Shown piece by piece: positions 19,891-26,879 of a stretch of 27,016 nt of DNA; positions within the stretch are counted from its first letter, which is position 1; each line of letters starts with the position of its first letter. The DNA comes from a virus. The notes under the pieces were generated by a model. The model did no database searches and was not told where the DNA came from. It was given only the letters and a program-made list of their open reading frames with translations. Position numbers and translations under genes: made by a program. The DNA lies in the IMG/VR virus record IMGVR_UViG_3300006802_000445, positions 1 to 27,016 of that record. The stretch is one strand, 5' to 3'.

Positions 19891-22365
19891 CTATTCAGGG
19901 AAAGAAGCTCCTGTTGGTTGAATATTGAAATCTAGAATAATAAATTCTGCGGTTCGAGTTGGTTGTAAAAATATTTGTCCGTATAAAATATTTTGATCTA
20001 TTAAATCCGGAGTATTATTTTCAGCATCCATTTTCACTCGGAATGCAAATAATCCTTGTTCATTTTTAACTTGTTCTAAATATGGATTAACAATGTTCAA
20101 GAATTTGTTTCTGGTTGCATCTGTGTTTTGTTCGAATACTAAGAATTGCGTTGATGAAGCAATAAACTTCTTAACTGCAATAAGCAAACGTCTCACATTT
20201 ACACGATCCAATGCACTTGGTCGGGCTTGAAGTGTTTTTTGACCCCATACTGCAATTCCTAGGTTTGGGAAGTTCGCTATTGGGTTGATACGTGCTTCAT
20301 ACAAATCTCCTTTTTGAGTTGGGCTCAAATTCTTATATGTTTTTTGAACCGTGGTTAAACCACCTCTATTCAAGCCTGCAGGGGCATACCATGGAGCTGC
20401 ATTAGCGTCATTGAATGCTATTACACCAGGCATCACTACAGATGCAGGTACCCATGTTGGACGACCGTTTCTAGGATCTTGAATTTTACACCATGGATAA
20501 TATGCAGCAGTATAACTAGAATCGATATTGTTTGCTTCAGATATTACCGTAGAAATACTATCTTCTAATGCAACTAAATCTAAAACATAAAATGTATCTT
20601 CTCTTTGTTCAGCCAATTGTCTTGCAGCATTACTAACGTTGCTATGCAAATTATGAATGATACCAGGTGTTAACAACATGTTCATATCATAATAATCAGT
20701 GTTGCTAAGAAGAGCAAATGCTTTTTTATATGATAATGTACCTGTGGTAGATGCTCCGCGGCAGTCAAATCCAAATGTATTATTATCTTTGATATTTCCT
20801 CCAGAAAACTTAGGCAAGTTAGGACGAGCTCCATCAAAACCACCTTGCATTGGCATAATAAAGTTACGTGTTGCTAATGCTACATTGCTAGTAAATGTTC
20901 CACCTGTTAAAGCTGCTTGCAATGAACCACTATATGCATTAGTTGTATTCGGGAATCCGGCGTTGGCACTTTGTGATACGTCACCTAAATAGAAATCAGT
21001 GTTACTTCCTGTTGTAGCTCCAGTTGCTGGAGTAGGTGCTAAATATACTAAATTAGGCTCCGCCGTAAAATCAAATCCATGTGTGTTACTTGAATTGAAT
21101 GAACCACCAACAGTTTGTGATGTTCTATAAGTAGCTGCAGCTAAATTGTTTCCTGCAGATGTGTTAGGTATTGGCGATAGCAATGCTCGGAATCCAAACG
21201 GTACCAATGTTTTATCGGCACTTTTATTTTCAACTGATTCTGCAACCTGTACTCTAACATATTTAGATGCATTTTCATAATCTCCGTTAATAACGATGTT
21301 TCCGTCTGCATCCAATGTTTGATATTGATCGCCAATTACTCGAGCTACATATCTTGGAGAATCTGGATCTAAGTTTACATTTTGATATGTTTCAACAATT
21401 TCCGGATTCAAATCTGTATCATTACTATTATATACTGATTGATATTGTGGCGGAATATTAGATGAATTTACACGACGCACTTCAACTGTAAATGTTCCAT
21501 ATCCATTAGGATCTGCTACTTCTGAAGCTAATCGAATGTTACGGATACCAATTTTTGTTTCATAATTAACTGCAGTACCGTGTGATATGGTATGAAATTT
21601 TAACAAGTTAATAACTGAGCTACCAATTTTCTGTGATGTAATCCATGGTGTTGCAGCAGTAGAATAATCTTGAGCAAAATCATATCCTGCTAATACTTCT
21701 GCAGTAACAGCTACATCTCCGAGGTTGTCAAATATTCCTACGGCGTTATTATTTTCATATTGCACATATACTGGATATTCACTTGATTTAGGAGTCTTTC
21801 CAAATACTTTGCTTAAATAATCATTATCGCCTGCTACAACTGATGCGGATACCGGAGTATTTGGTGTAGGGTATAATGTAAAGTTAGTAAATCCAGGTAC
21901 GTCTGTATTTAAATTGTCTGAATATGAACCTGTTATTGATATTGCAAAAGATCCTGACACGTCATCTGCTAATGAAGAGTCTATTAATAAATCTGCAGCA
22001 ACGTTTACTGGTTGCGTCGGATGTAATAGATGTGTTACAACTGCGGTAGATGCTGATGTTGATGTGATTGCAATTACGCCATTTTCTAAATCATATCCAT
22101 CTTCATATAATAAACGGGTTACTGTGATATTCGGAGCTCCTCCACGTAAATAATCTTGTACTACATATGGTACATATGATTCATCTGTGAATGATCCAAA
22201 TATTCTTTCAAATTCTGCATACGAAGAAACCGTAGTAGGAATAAGAGCCGGACCTTTTACAGTAGACCCGACAATTGCTGCTCCAATTTCTTGAATTGCT
22301 AGAGGTAAAAACGACTGGTCTATTTCTCTTGTATAGACGCCAGGCGTTACTATTCTTTCTGCCAT
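19891..22365 (-). CDS. Tail sheath protein, gp18-like
   Basis: The contractile sheath subunit, 824 aa (T4 gp18 is 659). The N-terminus has TPGVYTREIDQSFLPLAIQE followed by IGAAIVGSTVKGPALIPTTV, the usual sheath beginning that forms the intersubunit mesh. The C-terminal domain carries SVVMPGVIAFNDANAAPWYA then PAGLNRGGL, and GLFAFRVKMDAENNTPDLID, hallmarks of phage sheath proteins. The final strand FIILDFNIQPTGASFPE is the C-terminal arm. The middle (about 100-480) is a large insertion relative to minimal sheaths and probably forms surface-exposed domains. The gene is preceded by AAGGAAAG and an AT element, followed by a terminator and the tube gene. Confidence 0.94.
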   Translation of the reverse strand: MAERIVTPGVYTREIDQSFLPLAIQEIGAAIVGSTVKGPALIPTTVSSYAEFERIFGSFTDESYVPYVVQDYLRGGAPNITVTRLLYEDGYDLENGVIAITSTSASTAVVTHLLHPTQPVNVAADLLIDSSLADDVSGSFAISITGSYSDNLNTDVPGFTNFTLYPTPNTPVSASVVAGDNDYLSKVFGKTPKSSEYPVYVQYENNNAVGIFDNLGDVAVTAEVLAGYDFAQDYSTAATPWITSQKIGSSVINLLKFHTISHGTAVNYETKIGIRNIRLASEVADPNGYGTFTVEVRRVNSSNIPPQYQSVYNSNDTDLNPEIVETYQNVNLDPDSPRYVARVIGDQYQTLDADGNIVINGDYENASKYVRVQVAESVENKSADKTLVPFGFRALLSPIPNTSAGNNLAAATYRTSQTVGGSFNSSNTHGFDFTAEPNLVYLAPTPATGATTGSNTDFYLGDVSQSANAGFPNTTNAYSGSLQAALTGGTFTSNVALATRNFIMPMQGGFDGARPNLPKFSGGNIKDNNTFGFDCRGASTTGTLSYKKAFALLSNTDYYDMNMLLTPGIIHNLHSNVSNAARQLAEQREDTFYVLDLVALEDSISTVISEANNIDSSYTAAYYPWCKIQDPRNGRPTWVPASVVMPGVIAFNDANAAPWYAPAGLNRGGLTTVQKTYKNLSPTQKGDLYEARINPIANFPNLGIAVWGQKTLQARPSALDRVNVRRLLIAVKKFIASSTQFLVFEQNTDATRNKFLNIVNPYLEQVKNEQGLFAFRVKMDAENNTPDLIDQNILYGQIFLQPTRTAEFIILDFNIQPTGASFPE

Positions 22366-22396: not shown

Positions 22397-22411
22397 TATT
22401 ATATAAATATG
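22397..22411 (-). promoter_or_regulatory. Recurrent ATATTTATA element upstream of the sheath gene
   Basis: Minus strand CATATTTATATAATA, about 32 nt before the sheath ATG. A second ATATTTATA lies at 22442-22450 within the last codons of the upstream gene. Confidence 0.45.
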
Positions 22412-22430
22412 TTATTAAAAGCTCTAACAG

Positions 22431-22703
22431 TTAGTCTTGAGATATAAATATGCCTTCAGCTAAATTTATTTCGCCATCTCCGTATTTTTCTTTGAGGGAG
22501 GAAATTAAATTGGATTCTTGTTGTTGGAGATCTTTGAACTGCTGCAGTTGAAATCGTTTTTCTTTTTGAACCGTTTCAATTTGCTCGGATAATAACTCTT
22601 CATCTATAGTGCAATTAGCTATTTGAGCTGTTACACGTTGATATGAATCTTGTAATTCAGTGAGTTGTTCTAAATCAGTTTTGTCTAGTTTTCTAGTTGC
22701 CAT
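22431..22703 (-). CDS. Coiled-coil phage protein of unknown function (90 aa)
   Basis: A small, charged, almost wholly helical protein with a heptad-like pattern over residues 5-75 (DLEQLTELQDSYQRVTAQI, then QLQQFKDLQQQESNLISSL) ending EKYGDGEINLAEGIFISQD. Proteins of this shape and ending are frequent in marine myovirus genomes near structural genes; I recall no assigned function. It stands directly upstream of the sheath gene and could be a chaperone or minor structural component, which is inference. Confidence 0.65.
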   Translation of the reverse strand: MATRKLDKTDLEQLTELQDSYQRVTAQIANCTIDEELLSEQIETVQKEKRFQLQQFKDLQQQESNLISSLKEKYGDGEINLAEGIFISQD

Positions 22704-22726
22704 TGTTTTATTATTATAATAAGAAC

Positions 22727-22918
22727 TTATTCTGCTATATCCAAATCTTGTATCGCATTTTCATATTCTTCACGAAGCATTGCAACTCGAACGCCGTCAA
22801 TGGTTACGAATACTTCTCGGGGAAATATCACAGCATCTTTAAAATTTGCAGGATCAACTAGTATAACTGTGGAATGATATGATTCATTCGCAAACCGAAC
22901 TAAAACTTCTTTTTTCAT
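22727..22918 (-). CDS. Hypothetical protein (63 aa)
   Basis: A 63-aa mixed α/β protein (MKKEVLVRFANESYHSTVIL then VDPANFKDAVIFPREVFVTI), with no family that I recognise. It starts 3 nt after the stop codon of the T9SS-type protein and is followed 23 nt on by the coiled-coil gene, so the tight packing supports a real gene. No signal peptide or membrane helix. Confidence 0.6.
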   Translation of the reverse strand: MKKEVLVRFANESYHSTVILVDPANFKDAVIFPREVFVTIDGVRVAMLREEYENAIQDLDIAE

Positions 22919-22921
22919 ATA

Positions 22922-24046
22922 TTATTTTTTTGTAATGGAAATATTTTGAATTATATCAGTATCAACAACATTTATTATATACATTCCTTTGTTATATTCT
23001 GATAAATCATATGGAAACGAATTAATACCTCGATCTAAAGTAATAGTTTGTGTTTTTAATGATTGGCCAGTAAGAGTGATTAGGCTCAATTGTACTTGTG
23101 ATTCCTTTAAAGAATTTATAGTGATTAACACTTTATCTTCGGTTGGATTTGGATATGCCATGATTTCATATTTCTCATCTGTTTTACATTGTACAGTAAT
23201 AGGATCAAATATTTCAAACATTCCATCATAATCAATTTGTGTAAGTTGATAATATCCTTCAAAATAACGACCTGCTTTTAGATCATAAAATGTATATCGT
23301 GATTCATTTGTCGAATTTCCTTTAGCTTTCATTTCTGCTATTTCTAGCCAATGGATACCATCTCGACTTCTTTCTAATATAAAATAATCTGAATTAGTTT
23401 CTGAAGCAGTTTCCCAAGTTACTGTATTATATCCTCCATTTTCACAATTTATTGACATTCCTAAAAATTCTACGGGTAGTGTGTTAGGATAAATCAAAAT
23501 ATCATTTTCGGTTACCGTGCCGGCTCCTGTAAAAGCGGGGCCATTATAAGACCCATCTATATTAAAAGATCCATTTACATTAACTGAAGAAGTTGCTTCA
23601 TCTATTATCACATTGCCACCAACACTTAAGGTACCATCAAAATCTATTTCAATATTCGTACCATTTTCTGCCGTTAGATCTCCTAGAATAGATACTTCAC
23701 CATTTCCTAATATAGTTAGGATTCCATTATTGTTAATATCTATAGACCCTATAGTTATCTTACCTGATACATTTAATTGGATATTATTATTACCTGATAA
23801 AGTCCCGACAATATGGAGTATACCACCGTCGTCAATCGTTATACCTATTCCATTACTAGAACTTACATTTCCCGAACAATAAATGGAATCGGGATTAACT
23901 ACATGTAAGAGTGAATTATTATTTAATGTGATATCAGAATAACTTGCATTTCCGGAAGTTATATAAGTTTGATTGTTATTAACAGTTAATGTTTGTGAAA
24001 AACAAATAACAGGTATAAAAATTAATAGGATAAATAAATTCTTCAT
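22922..24046 (-). CDS. Secreted protein with type IX secretion C-terminal sorting domain
   Basis: A 374-aa protein built like a Bacteroidota surface protein. Residues 1-18 are a Sec signal peptide (MKNLFILLIFIPVICFSQ). Residues 20-185 form a repetitive Asn/Gly/Ile-rich β-solenoid-like region (for example IQLNVSGKITIGSIDINNN). LPVEFLG (190-196) opens a domain with TVTWETASETNSDYFILERS, typical of T9SS cargo. The last 80 residues are a type A sorting domain: YPNPTEDKVLITI (298-310), LTGQSL, then LSEYNKGMYIINVV and final ISITKK. That tag sends proteins through the T9SS to be anchored on or released from the host surface. Such a gene in a phage tail region is unusual. A candidate structured RNA lies just upstream. 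Domain call secure; role (surface exclusion, adhesion, virion part) unknown. Confidence 0.88.
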   Translation of the reverse strand: MKNLFILLIFIPVICFSQTLTVNNNQTYITSGNASYSDITLNNNSLLHVVNPDSIYCSGNVSSSNGIGITIDDGGILHIVGTLSGNNNIQLNVSGKITIGSIDINNNGILTILGNGEVSILGDLTAENGTNIEIDFDGTLSVGGNVIIDEATSSVNVNGSFNIDGSYNGPAFTGAGTVTENDILIYPNTLPVEFLGMSINCENGGYNTVTWETASETNSDYFILERSRDGIHWLEIAEMKAKGNSTNESRYTFYDLKAGRYFEGYYQLTQIDYDGMFEIFDPITVQCKTDEKYEIMAYPNPTEDKVLITINSLKESQVQLSLITLTGQSLKTQTITLDRGINSFPYDLSEYNKGMYIINVVDTDIIQNISITKK

Positions 24047-24063
24047 AATAATTGTATGTTATT

Positions 24064-24118
24064 AACTCAATTGAAGAATCTTCACGAAACCCCCATCTTG
24101 CCATGGGCCGGCTGAGTT
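24064..24118 (-). ncRNA. Candidate three-way-junction RNA in the leader of the T9SS gene
   Basis: On the minus strand AACTCA at one end pairs with TGAGTT at the other, enclosing two hairpins: CCCAT/ATGGG with a GGCAAG loop, and TGAAG/CTTCA with an ATT loop. The stretch is clearly richer in G and C than the surrounding gaps and ends 17 nt before the ATG. No T run follows, so it is not a standard terminator. No known riboswitch consensus is recognised. Confidence 0.4.
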
Positions 24119-24121
24119 TAA

Positions 24122-25183
24122 TTATTTATATTTTTTTACAATAGAACCATCATCATAAATCTCAAATACAAGACCTTTAGTATTTTCTGATACCAATTGT
24201 CCAATTTGGTTTACAATTTTTACAGGTTTATTTCTATCAATATTATTATTAATACTTATGATATTGAATGTTTCTGATTCTCCATTAAAATCAAATTGTG
24301 TTAAACGATAATAATTGATTACAGGTAAATAAGTTCTATCTACAATTTCATATTCTGTTATGTCATTAGTTGTACCCATTCCGCTGGTTGTAGAAACCAT
24401 ATCCCAATTTTTACCATCTATACTTCTTTCTACTACATAGTAATCACAATTTATTTCAGATTCTGTTATCCATGTTAAATAATTGTCTCTGCCAACATTC
24501 TCGCCAGTAAAAGAAGTTAATTCAACTGGCAGAGTGCCATAATCTATTTCAGAAAGACCCATATCATCTATCCACCATTCTTCACCAGATGCATTTACTC
24601 GAGCATAGATATCAATAGCAACTTGTGTTACACCCATTGGGATGTATAATTCTACTACAGAATATCCGTCGCCTGTATTAGTTCTGTTACCTCCCGCCAA
24701 TGGTTGGAATTCTGTAAGAGTTCCATCCGCCATTTTAGAAGCCACTGCGTTTGTGTTGTAATCCCAATAAGCATTACCATATCCTCTAATTCTTATTTCC
24801 GATGTATACGACAATTCACCATCGGTACTTAAATAAACTTGAACGAAATCTGGAGAATCTACGCCAGCTGTGTTTCCTCCTGTGAATCTATATGACCCTA
24901 ATCTAAATCTGAACACGTGTTCTTTAAATGGGTCTAACCCAGTTACATTTGGTAGATAATATATATCATCTTCTATCCCAGAATTACCATTGGACCAACC
25001 TAATAATGCGGCACTGGTGTTTCCTGATACTGAGGCATTAGTAAAATATCCAGCATCAAAGCCTGACCACCAAAATCCACCCCATTCATAATCTTCTACA
25101 TTATCATATGTGACTAATGTTTCTGTTTGTGCGTAAATATTTAATGAAACCAATAACCATAAACTTAAAAATAATTGTTTCAT
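24122..25183 (-). CDS. Secreted Bacteroidota-type protein with variant C-terminal tag
   Basis: A 353-aa protein with a Sec signal peptide (MKQLFLSLWLLVSLNIYAQ, cleavage after Ala18). Residues about 20-212 are Trp/Tyr/Gly-rich β-sandwich-like sequence, possibly carbohydrate-binding: EWGGFWWSGFDAGYF near the start and DIYARVNASGEEWWIDDMGL near the end. LPVELTSFTG (218-227) starts the same domain as in the neighbouring T9SS protein, with LTWITESEINCDYYVVERSI and YYRLTQFDFNG. The last 36 residues (VKIVNQIGQLVSE then GLVFEIYDDGSIVKKYK) look like the short variant sorting ends of marine flavobacterial proteins. This comparison is from memory. It precedes the other T9SS gene, so both are probably co-transcribed. 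Confidence 0.78.
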   Translation of the reverse strand: MKQLFLSLWLLVSLNIYAQTETLVTYDNVEDYEWGGFWWSGFDAGYFTNASVSGNTSAALLGWSNGNSGIEDDIYYLPNVTGLDPFKEHVFRFRLGSYRFTGGNTAGVDSPDFVQVYLSTDGELSYTSEIRIRGYGNAYWDYNTNAVASKMADGTLTEFQPLAGGNRTNTGDGYSVVELYIPMGVTQVAIDIYARVNASGEEWWIDDMGLSEIDYGTLPVELTSFTGENVGRDNYLTWITESEINCDYYVVERSIDGKNWDMVSTTSGMGTTNDITEYEIVDRTYLPVINYYRLTQFDFNGESETFNIISINNNIDRNKPVKIVNQIGQLVSENTKGLVFEIYDDGSIVKKYK

Positions 25184-25191
25184 AATATTCC

Positions 25192-25206
25192 TTTATATAT
25201 AAATAT
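25192..25206 (-). promoter_or_regulatory. Recurrent AT element with ribosome binding site
   Basis: Minus strand ATATTTATATATAAA, running into AAAGGA 7 nt before the ATG of the secreted protein. The copy is less exact than those at 9263 and 19203. Confidence 0.35.
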
Positions 25207-25225
25207 AAGGAAATATGATTGATTA

Positions 25226-25630
25226 TCAAATTATTTTTATATCTTGCCGGCCATGTTTCCAATATGGCTCACCTCCATAATTTATACATAGCTCTTCTTC
25301 GGCATTAATATCACGTATAGCAACAAACTGAAATGCTTTTTCTGTAGGGTGATCTATCCAATCTGTATTAGGAGAATGTGAGTGGTTGTAGAGTGAGCCA
25401 TATCCCCAAGCTACTACAAAATCTTGATTACCGTTATGTGCTCCCTCTCTTGGATATCCAAATCGATAATTGAAAAATGGATCTAGAGTTTTATTGCCTG
25501 GGTTTTTACCTAAGGATATTAAAGGACATATTTCTATGGTTTCTCCTTCTGCAATTACTTCTCGTGCAAATACTCCTAAACCTTTACCCTCTACGGGTTT
25601 CACATATATTTTAGTTGGAGGGTAATACAT
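25226..25630 (-). CDS. SET-domain protein (putative lysine methyltransferase)
   Basis: A 134-aa protein that is essentially a bare SET domain, near the size of chlorovirus vSET (119 aa). GKGLGVFA (15-22) is the AdoMet-binding GxG motif. GYGSLYNHSHSPN (76-88) has the N-H-S of motif III (N82, H83). EEELCINYG (111-119) is motif IV with the catalytic tyrosine Y118. There is no pre-SET or Cys-rich post-SET zinc region. It would transfer methyl groups to lysine side chains; the target may be a virion or host protein. The start shares its first base with the stop of the 222-aa structural gene (TAATG), so it is made with virion proteins. Family call strong, substrate unknown. Confidence 0.87.
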   Translation of the reverse strand: MYYPPTKIYVKPVEGKGLGVFAREVIAEGETIEICPLISLGKNPGNKTLDPFFNYRFGYPREGAHNGNQDFVVAWGYGSLYNHSHSPNTDWIDHPTEKAFQFVAIRDINAEEELCINYGGEPYWKHGRQDIKII

Positions 25631-26298
25631 TATTTTAATTCAAAACCATATGCAATGATGTTAAATGCTGCATTTGCACCTAATCCAGTTGTTAGGTTGT
25701 CATTAATCTCTAGTACTAATCTGTTGTTAGTTCCTTTTGCAATTTTTAATCCGTATTGGAATCCAAATATTTTCTGAAAATCTAGTACAGGAAGAATACC
25801 ATTTGCGGGGGAGACACCTTTACCAGACGCTCCTTGAATAGCAGGCGCGATAAATGGGCCGGCTGTTGGATCTGCAAATGCAGGATTACCTTGACATAAT
25901 CGTATAAAATCAAAGTTGGTTGTTAAAGAGGTACCTATATTTACTTCACCATTATTATCTTCATAATACAAACGCATTCCATTTGTTAAAGCAGCTCCAC
26001 TACCTGCAAAATCATCTCCTAATACAATACCATCTCCTGCTATAATAAAAGATAGTGAAGTAATGTAAATATCTGCTCTTGCAATACCATCAATTGAAAA
26101 TATTTGAGGAGTAGTAGAACCATCCACTAACATATCAGTAGTTGTTCCGTCTCCATTTAAAGTAAGAAATTGACGAAATATTAACTGCTTATCTCTATCA
26201 TCTTGAGGTGGAAAAGGTGCTGGTTGTACACGGATATATCCGCCATCCTCAATTAGAGCCTGCTTATTATCATCTACTATTCTAGTTTTACTTGACAT
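25630..26298 (-). CDS. Putative virion structural protein (222 aa)
   Basis: A 222-aa β-rich protein with little charge clustering. Phrases such as FLTLNGDGTTTDMLVDGSTT and LTNGMRLYYEDNNGEVNIG, and the closing NLTTGLGANAAFNIIAYGFE, resemble capsid- or neck-decoration proteins of marine myoviruses, from memory only. It starts at the stop codon of the 193-aa gene and ends at the start of the SET gene (1-nt overlaps on both sides), so all three are co-translated. No signal peptide. A head or tail surface role is likely from context; the exact role is unknown. Confidence 0.55.
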   Translation of the reverse strand: MSSKTRIVDDNKQALIEDGGYIRVQPAPFPPQDDRDKQLIFRQFLTLNGDGTTTDMLVDGSTTPQIFSIDGIARADIYITSLSFIIAGDGIVLGDDFAGSGAALTNGMRLYYEDNNGEVNIGTSLTTNFDFIRLCQGNPAFADPTAGPFIAPAIQGASGKGVSPANGILPVLDFQKIFGFQYGLKIAKGTNNRLVLEINDNLTTGLGANAAFNIIAYGFELK

Positions 26299-26879
26299 TA
26301 ATATAATTCTCTATATATTATTGATCTTGCTCCAAATTGTACTGGCATTGAAGTGTTTCCTGCTGGTGGAGTAATAGATACACCGACAGATGAACCTTTT
26401 TCTAATACTAGGTTTGCAGGAATTTCATTAAATTGTCCTACAGGTACATATAATGTAGCTGCAAGTGTTCCACCTGTAAATGCAGATCCTGAGGCTCCAT
26501 ATTGTAAAGTTGCATCTAATGTGTTGGAAGATCCAAAATTCTGATTAAGTGCTACAGATGCTGTTGCAACAGACATCGCTGTTGGGTTTTTATAGAAATT
26601 TATCCCATACATATTTGGGCTACCTCCAGATGCCGTAGTAGCGGTAGTAAAAAAGTTTTCTAGAATTATTGTATCATCTTCATTATTTTCTAAAAAGAAT
26701 ACTGCATTTTCTCCAGCAGTTGTTAGAGTTACTAAAGGTGTGCCTAAAAAGTAAGCATCTCCTTCTTCAGCACTATACTGAAAAATGGTTTCACTAATTG
26801 AAGAAGCTAATAATCTATTATCAGAGCTTACCCCAACTGTATATCCTTTTCCTGTTCCGTCTTCTATATTGAATCCCAT
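26298..26879 (-). CDS. Putative virion surface protein (193 aa), tandem paralogue
   Basis: A 193-aa β-rich protein starting MGFNIEDGTGKGYTVGVSSD. Repeated patterns of small hydrophobic, Thr, Ser and Gly residues fit a trimeric or jelly-roll virion protein. The C-terminus (QFNEIPANLVLEKGSSVGVS then ITPPAGNTSMPVQFG) aligns with the partial gene immediately upstream at the right edge (FNQVNTALIFPKGSSLLLTV then TPPTNNTVMPVNFN), so the two are paralogues. AAGGAAAT lies just before the ATG. Similar protein pairs occur in other marine phages in my recollection, without assigned function. Confidence 0.58.
   Translation of the reverse strand: MGFNIEDGTGKGYTVGVSSDNRLLASSISETIFQYSAEEGDAYFLGTPLVTLTTAGENAVFFLENNEDDTIILENFFTTATTASGGSPNMYGINFYKNPTAMSVATASVALNQNFGSSNTLDATLQYGASGSAFTGGTLAATLYVPVGQFNEIPANLVLEKGSSVGVSITPPAGNTSMPVQFGARSIIYRELY

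Follow-up and report, generated by a model that had tools for sequence, protein, structure and literature searches.

Genes of the locus

The window, that is, the whole stretch of DNA analysed here (27,016 bp, IMG/VR record IMGVR_UViG_3300006802_000445), has all its main genes on the minus strand. Replication genes (for a ribonucleotide reductase, a DnaB-like helicase, a UvsX-like recombinase, a single-strand binding protein and a polymerase) are followed by tail genes, among which we found, besides the tail sheath gene, a baseplate gene of T4 type (match to PF12322 and phrog_150) and a tube gene (PF06841, 18.6 bits, below its cut-off of 28.2). These T4-type genes for sheath, tube and baseplate show that the phage of the window is T4-like and contractile-tailed. 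It is a myophage of a Bacteroidota host, presumably one possessing the type IX secretion system (T9SS), which in many Bacteroidota is a main route for building the outer surface. The genes which concern us are the following:

19891..22365, minus strand, tail sheath (phrog_23, E 1.9e-67, also PF04984)
22431..22703, minus strand, orf90, a conserved gene which adjoins the tail sheath gene and marks the insertion site
22727..22918, minus strand, orf63, a small cytosolic-looking protein of 63 aa, 3 bp after the T9A stop
22922..24046, minus strand, T9A, a predicted secreted protein of 374 aa with a type A T9SS sorting domain (the ORF fits exactly)
24122..25183, minus strand, T9B, a second predicted secreted protein of the cassette, 353 aa, upstream neighbour of T9A
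25226..25630, minus strand, SET-domain protein, bordering the insertion on its opposite side (PF00856, E 3e-15)

The first-pass annotation of this DNA had singled out 22922-24046 without giving the strand, which for this ORF is the minus strand. It had overlooked both that the neighbour 24122-25183 encodes another secreted protein of this type and that a linked 63-aa gene is present.

Some observations can be made on the surroundings. The SET-domain gene (25226-25630), which is protein methyltransferase-like, lies in the late operon and has a counterpart (73%) in the related locus L014. A series of paralogous proteins of 190-220 aa is encoded at 25630-26879 of the window and at 280-2071 of another contig, L002, the latter having at least three copies of the family of 26298-26879; these proteins are possibly virion fibre or decoration proteins, and the copies which we scanned gave no family match. 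Of the full-length sheaths in the phage collection, the nearest one (PP395634.1, 31986-34406, 49% identity) matches with better coverage than those of Flavobacterium phages; its recorded host is Microcystis, a cyanobacterium, and this record may deserve a check.

The T9A protein

The product of 22922-24046 is composed of four parts:

23996..24046, minus strand, predicted Sec signal peptide, aa 1-17, cleaved between CFS and Q (Q-rule), from the sequence
23507..23995, minus strand, body, aa 18-180, beta-solenoid-like (model, pLDDT about 65-85; weak TamB-like match)
23183..23479, minus strand, Ig/Fn3-like domain, aa 190-288, LPVE..W.TASE.N..YF..ERS.DG..YY.L.Q.D.DG (alignments and model)
22952..23155, minus strand, T9SS type A C-terminal sorting domain, aa 298-365 (TIGR04183 and PF18962)

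The type A T9SS domain which had been proposed for its C-terminus was recovered by both profile searches: TIGR04183 matches aa 298-365 with 35.2 bits (cut-off 23, E 8.9e-9) and PF18962 matches aa 298-364 with 35.2 bits (cut-off 27, E 1.5e-8). The domain lies within the C-terminal 77 residues and stands well above chance; when the whole record is searched with PF18962, T9A is the single match (39.4 bits). With a sorting domain over both curated cut-offs, T9A is a predicted T9SS type A cargo protein. In Bacteroidota, signal peptides follow the Q-rule, by which a Gln occupies position +1 of the cleavage site. The signal peptide that had also been noticed earlier can be read directly from the sequence as MKNLFILLIFIPVICFS followed, after the predicted cleavage site, by QTL, and its n, h and c regions are visible.

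The AlphaFold2 model of T9A has a mean pLDDT of 73 (moderate confidence). It begins with a hydrophobic helix, continues with a ladder of short strands at aa 19-180, which is consistent with the solenoid-like body described in the first-pass annotation, and with an Ig-like domain at about aa 190-288, and ends in a seven-stranded sandwich (aa 293-373, pLDDT about 70-88). A seven-stranded C-terminal sandwich has been reported for solved T9SS CTDs (PMC11285876). The 50 best fold matches of the complete T9A chain include no solved CTD.

The T9B protein

The neighbouring protein has a similar plan:

25130..25183, minus strand, predicted Sec signal peptide, aa 1-18, cleaved between IYA and Q (Q-rule), from the sequence
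24545..25126, minus strand, N-terminal beta-sandwich domain, aa 20-213 (low-confidence model)
24251..24532, minus strand, Ig/Fn3-like LPVEL domain, aa 218-311 (alignments)
24125..24250, minus strand, short C-terminal tail ("mini-CTD"), aa 312-353, vkIVNqiGQlV...kGlvfEIYDDGSivKKyk

Its N-terminal domain is conserved in other phage cargo (GNAYWDYNTNA...AGGNRT.TGDGYS...GEEWW.D) and has MAM and glycosidase-associated beta domains among its weak fold matches, and its Ig-like domain is as in T9A (LPVEL...W.TESE.N..YY.VERS.DG...YYRL.Q.D..G). The tail is 42 residues long and is matched by neither TIGR04183 nor PF18962. An alignment (hhalign) of the tail family with full CTDs gives a weak match (probability 27%, P 7e-4, 20 columns), which suggests that the short tail may be homologous with the full CTD. 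Since the profiles do not match and this alignment is weak, we did not file T9B as a T9SS type A member; judging from its sequence, it probably works like type A cargo. For the export of HBP35 its last 22 residues are enough (PMC4804311); a lysine of the final CTD strand is also counted as part of the address (PMC11285876). The address thus defined in the literature, namely a predicted final hairpin and the last-strand lysine, is retained in the short phage tail.

Apart from the sorting domain of T9A, neither protein contains a curated domain family. Fold searches returned only generic beta-solenoid, Fn3/Ig and glycosidase-accessory matches (TM < 0.3 on the query), a sequence search of the PDB gave nothing useful, and with a profile built from T9B and its homologue in L085 no bacterial homologue of T9B was found.

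Related proteins in other phages

Secreted proteins of this kind recur in phages: scanning IMG/VR with a profile of the Ig-like domain, we found 45 viral loci which encode them. Among 34 non-redundant related phage proteins with an N-terminal hydrophobic core, 31 have Gln at the expected +1 site, as against 15% of control windows (the nominal binomial p of 5e-23 is overstated, as the proteins are related). Their bodies vary and comprise solenoid, CUB, Ig_7, Fn3, G8, glycine-rich and galactose-binding-like domains, to which F5/8-type C, PPC and T9SS-associated galactose-binding domains must be added. As the Q-rule signal peptides have been kept in so many proteins despite these differing bodies, we concluded that they are under selection. 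TIGR04183 matches five of the 34.

A terminase or a sheath is present on 14 of the 48 cargo records searched, and in several others the cargo gene has a capsid or portal gene as its neighbour; hence those records at least are clearly phage. In L085 and L106-L108 the T9B homologue is located downstream of the major capsid gene, in L117 and L118 it is close to that gene, and in L103 a cargo gene directly precedes a ribonucleotide reductase gene 79% identical to that of the window. Only four of 50,697 annotated phage records match the cargo family, all of them uncultured phages of 462-642 kb, one of which (L089) encodes a 369-aa protein with the architecture of T9A. This means that work based on isolates would have missed the family.

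Two irregularities were noted in these records. In a 635-kb phage (L088, LR745206.1, 4688-6366) a frameshift seems to separate a secreted cargo gene from the part encoding its Ig domain and short tail. In the contigs of L093 and L094 the terminase frames (G310:C1:45246-47021 and G311:C1:9187-10962) contain 7-8 in-frame TGA and 3-4 TAG codons, which hint at an intron or a recoded genetic code.

The short tail in phages and in bacteria

In 36 of 41 phage proteins the tail which follows the YYRLKQ.D..G motif has 45-58 residues, with the pattern vvkivNllGqeVde...Gi.i.iY.DGs..Kk.i. Our first estimate for bacterial tails, about 95 residues, was biased because the matches had been ranked against a full-length tail, and the comparison was redone with bias-free queries. 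In a search of 60 genomes with queries unbiased for the tail, none of the 18 bacterial homologues scored has a tail of 65 residues or less, the range being 86-105 aa. Bias-free queries against 12 bacterial genomes gave 176 matches; among the matches listed, nearly all stop before the tail. The short tail taken by itself occurs in 21 of 247 Bacteroidia genomes, mostly as one copy. This rules out that it is exclusive to phages; it is phage-enriched. How small a T9SS address tag can be is a question for which the short phage tail offers a natural test case.

An insertion in the late operon

Among 80 loci retrieved with the sheath, the relative L014 has the gene order paralogue, SET, orf90, sheath, with 43 bp between its SET gene (1147-1554) and its orf90 (from 1598), and thus presents the empty site. 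TIGR04183 matched none of the 49 other sheath-relative records searched, many of which are fragments. From these two facts we concluded that T9B, T9A and orf63 form an insertion in the late operon, a cassette of moron type: the genes are additional ones, placed between genes which are adjacent in a relative. There is no minus-strand terminator-like site within 22400-25300, and promoter-like sites at the cassette show no excess over shuffled sequences, so that a promoter or terminator of its own, another mark of morons, was not found. The earlier description of T9A as lying among structural genes without a terminator of its own therefore stands; the idea that it does not belong to a moron is not supported, given the empty site. 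The 75-bp gap between T9B and T9A (24047-24121) contains an inverted repeat (aactca...ttgagtt). A cis-acting RNA or a separate transcription unit in this gap was considered and rejected (fold z -0.59, no promoter excess).

The same cluster is found in a separately assembled contig of 40 kb (IMGVR 3300025889_015384), with 99.94% DNA identity over 17,123 bp. In a divergent contig (L136), the neck and sheath genes of which resemble those of Flavobacterium phage immuto, a T9B homologue directly precedes an orf90 homologue (31%, E 9e-13), which is followed by the sheath gene, as in the window. Immuto-like phages, which grow on Flavobacterium and are the closest relatives in culture with a Bacteroidota host, lack the cassette at this position. 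The second contig and this synteny rule out contamination by host DNA.

orf63 and companion genes

Besides the near-identical contig, six records contain a homologue of orf63:

L244, 6001-6213
L245 and L246, 6001-6213
L247, 6001-6213
L248, 4027-4239
L243, 6001-6192

As L245 and L246 share an identical stretch of 12,168 bp, these records amount to five other phages. All five have, on the same contig, a cargo gene whose product has the Ig domain and the short tail; this gene lies directly upstream of the orf63 homologue in four of them and 4.4 kb away in L243/L105. Every sheath-relative locus without cargo also lacks orf63. The protein lacks a signal peptide, belongs to no known PHROG family and is matched by nothing in the phage collection. 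Our guess from this linkage is that orf63 probably serves the cargo, for example in its expression or targeting, which makes it a candidate phage helper of the T9SS route.

In L244 (1458-3896) and L245 (1086-3524) the cargo gene is preceded by a gene whose secreted product of 812 aa has a T9SS domain of type B (TIGR04131 over its cut-off). SprB repeats are the repeat type of a gliding adhesin, and they are present in the protein of L244, which is a phage relative of gliding adhesins. Such type B cargo in phage cassettes lends support to a genuine export function of the phage cargo.

Export and possible use

We consider it quite probable that T9A and T9B are phage-encoded surface cargo exported by the T9SS and carried as an insert; their sequences make surface export by the infected cell likely. 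T9B, T9A and orf63 would be expressed late, together with the virion genes. The host Sec system would carry both proteins across the inner membrane, the removal of the signal peptide leaving an N-terminal pyroglutamate, and they would then pass the outer membrane through the host SprA/PorV translocon, which would recognise them by the two final strands of their tails. Finally they would stay on the cell surface or be released, as putative binding proteins made of a solenoid or a beta-sandwich together with an Ig domain. If phages do feed their own proteins into the T9SS late in infection, the secretion machine of the host becomes a phage tool for changing the surface.

As to the use of this export, the reading which we put first, while giving it slightly less than an even chance, is a remodelling of the surface which would block further adsorption to the infected cell and to its debris, that is, superinfection exclusion and a smaller loss of progeny. 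We favour it because phage-exposed resistant F. columnare carry mutations in sprA, gldM, gldK and gldN (PMC9233685), which shows that the surface built by the T9SS matters for infection. The exclusion role is weakened by the fact that genes of a late operon come late, classic superinfection exclusion being usually early.

It is rather unlikely that the secreted proteins are instead adhesins or a virion coat which bind glycans or particles and so tether debris or progeny to surfaces or to new hosts, an ecological moron and not an exclusion system. The CUB, F5/8-type C, G8, PPC and T9SS-associated galactose-binding domains of related phage proteins, and the SprB repeats of one phage cassette, would fit such a role, whereas the domains of T9A and T9B themselves belong to no curated family beyond the sorting domain.

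Less likely still is a jamming of the T9SS, in which a late and abundant short-tailed cargo would occupy the PorV shuttle, the SprA channel or the sortase and leave host adhesins, phage receptors included, undisplayed. The short tail is indeed commonest in phages (36/41) and absent from the 18 bacterial homologues sampled regardless of tail, and phage infection of F. columnare depends on T9SS genes (PMC9233685). However, the bodies are conserved and also differ from one another (solenoid, CUB, galactose-binding-like, Ig_7), for which a mere plug would have no need; the CTD of T9A is complete; and short tails are also found in the 21 of 247 bacterial genomes.

That the proteins are an ordinary virion component, a fibre or decoration which resembles secreted proteins at both termini only because of its origin, we regard as improbable. 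Their genes do lie between head and tail genes in the window and in L136, and those of L085 and L106-L108 adjoin the capsid gene. Against this, the Q-rule signal peptide, kept in 31/34 proteins, would take the protein out of the cytoplasm, where virions assemble, and the cassette genes are missing in most relatives.

A misassembly joining host DNA to phage DNA, suggested by domains which are typical of Bacteroidota chromosomes, can practically be discarded, since only 11 mismatches in 17 kb distinguish the two separate contigs, phage genes flank both sides and the T9B family lies beside phage structural genes in other contigs.

Going beyond the exported cargo of the window, one may tentatively imagine, though we think it doubtful, that Bacteroidota phages share a "surface display" module which is dedicated to this task and can be transferred. 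It would consist of secreted Q-rule proteins whose binding domains can be exchanged, a T9SS tag of half length specialised for phages, and a small cytosolic helper, orf63; it would be expressed with the virion genes and would remodel or jam the host surface displayed by the T9SS.

Comparison with known systems

Morons of the lambda lom/bor type encode, in the late operon of the phage, an outer-surface protein which is outside the set of proteins building the particle. The present cassette resembles them in its late-operon position and in the (here predicted) outer-surface location of its products; it differs in the export route, shows no homology with them, and no promoter or terminator of its own was found here. 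With host T9SS type A cargo (TIGR04183/PF18962) the proteins share the signal peptide, LPVEL Ig-like domain and CTD of a common Bacteroidota cargo architecture, but they are borne by a phage, and T9B and most of the phage relatives have a tail of half the usual length.

A close precedent is Cryophage (Bellas et al. 2020, PMC7468147), whose T9SS cargo was regarded there as unique. There too the phage encodes proteins with type A sorting domains, use of the host T9SS was proposed and superinfection exclusion was suggested. The Cryophage cargo, called variable genes, consists of a predicted endoglucanase, a GH39 enzyme and a PA14 protein (PMC7468147), whereas the pair of the window is beta-rich, has no recognised enzyme domain and carries the LPVEL Ig domain; it lies in a T4-like structural operon, one of its members is short-tailed, and it is followed by orf63. 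Sorting domains have also been seen in crAss-like contigs, where BACON/T9SS proteins are, as here, encoded near head genes of Bacteroidota phages (PMC6949934); these differ by their BACON-domain architecture and crAss-like genomes, and neither a short tail nor a linked small gene is described in the part of that source considered here. The phages of P. gingivalis likewise encode proteins with Q-rule signal peptides which are thought to alter the host surface; they were found in P. gingivalis genomes, and the T9SS is not mentioned (PMC10367356).

In UniProt the name "Secretion system C-terminal sorting domain" is already attached to a protein of a phage. With this entry, Cryophage (PMC7468147) and the crAss-like contigs (PMC6949934), the concept of phage-borne T9SS cargo is already known. 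As far as our searches reach, what is new is the T4-like late-operon cassette, the enrichment of the short tail, the type B/SprB phage protein and the link with orf63.
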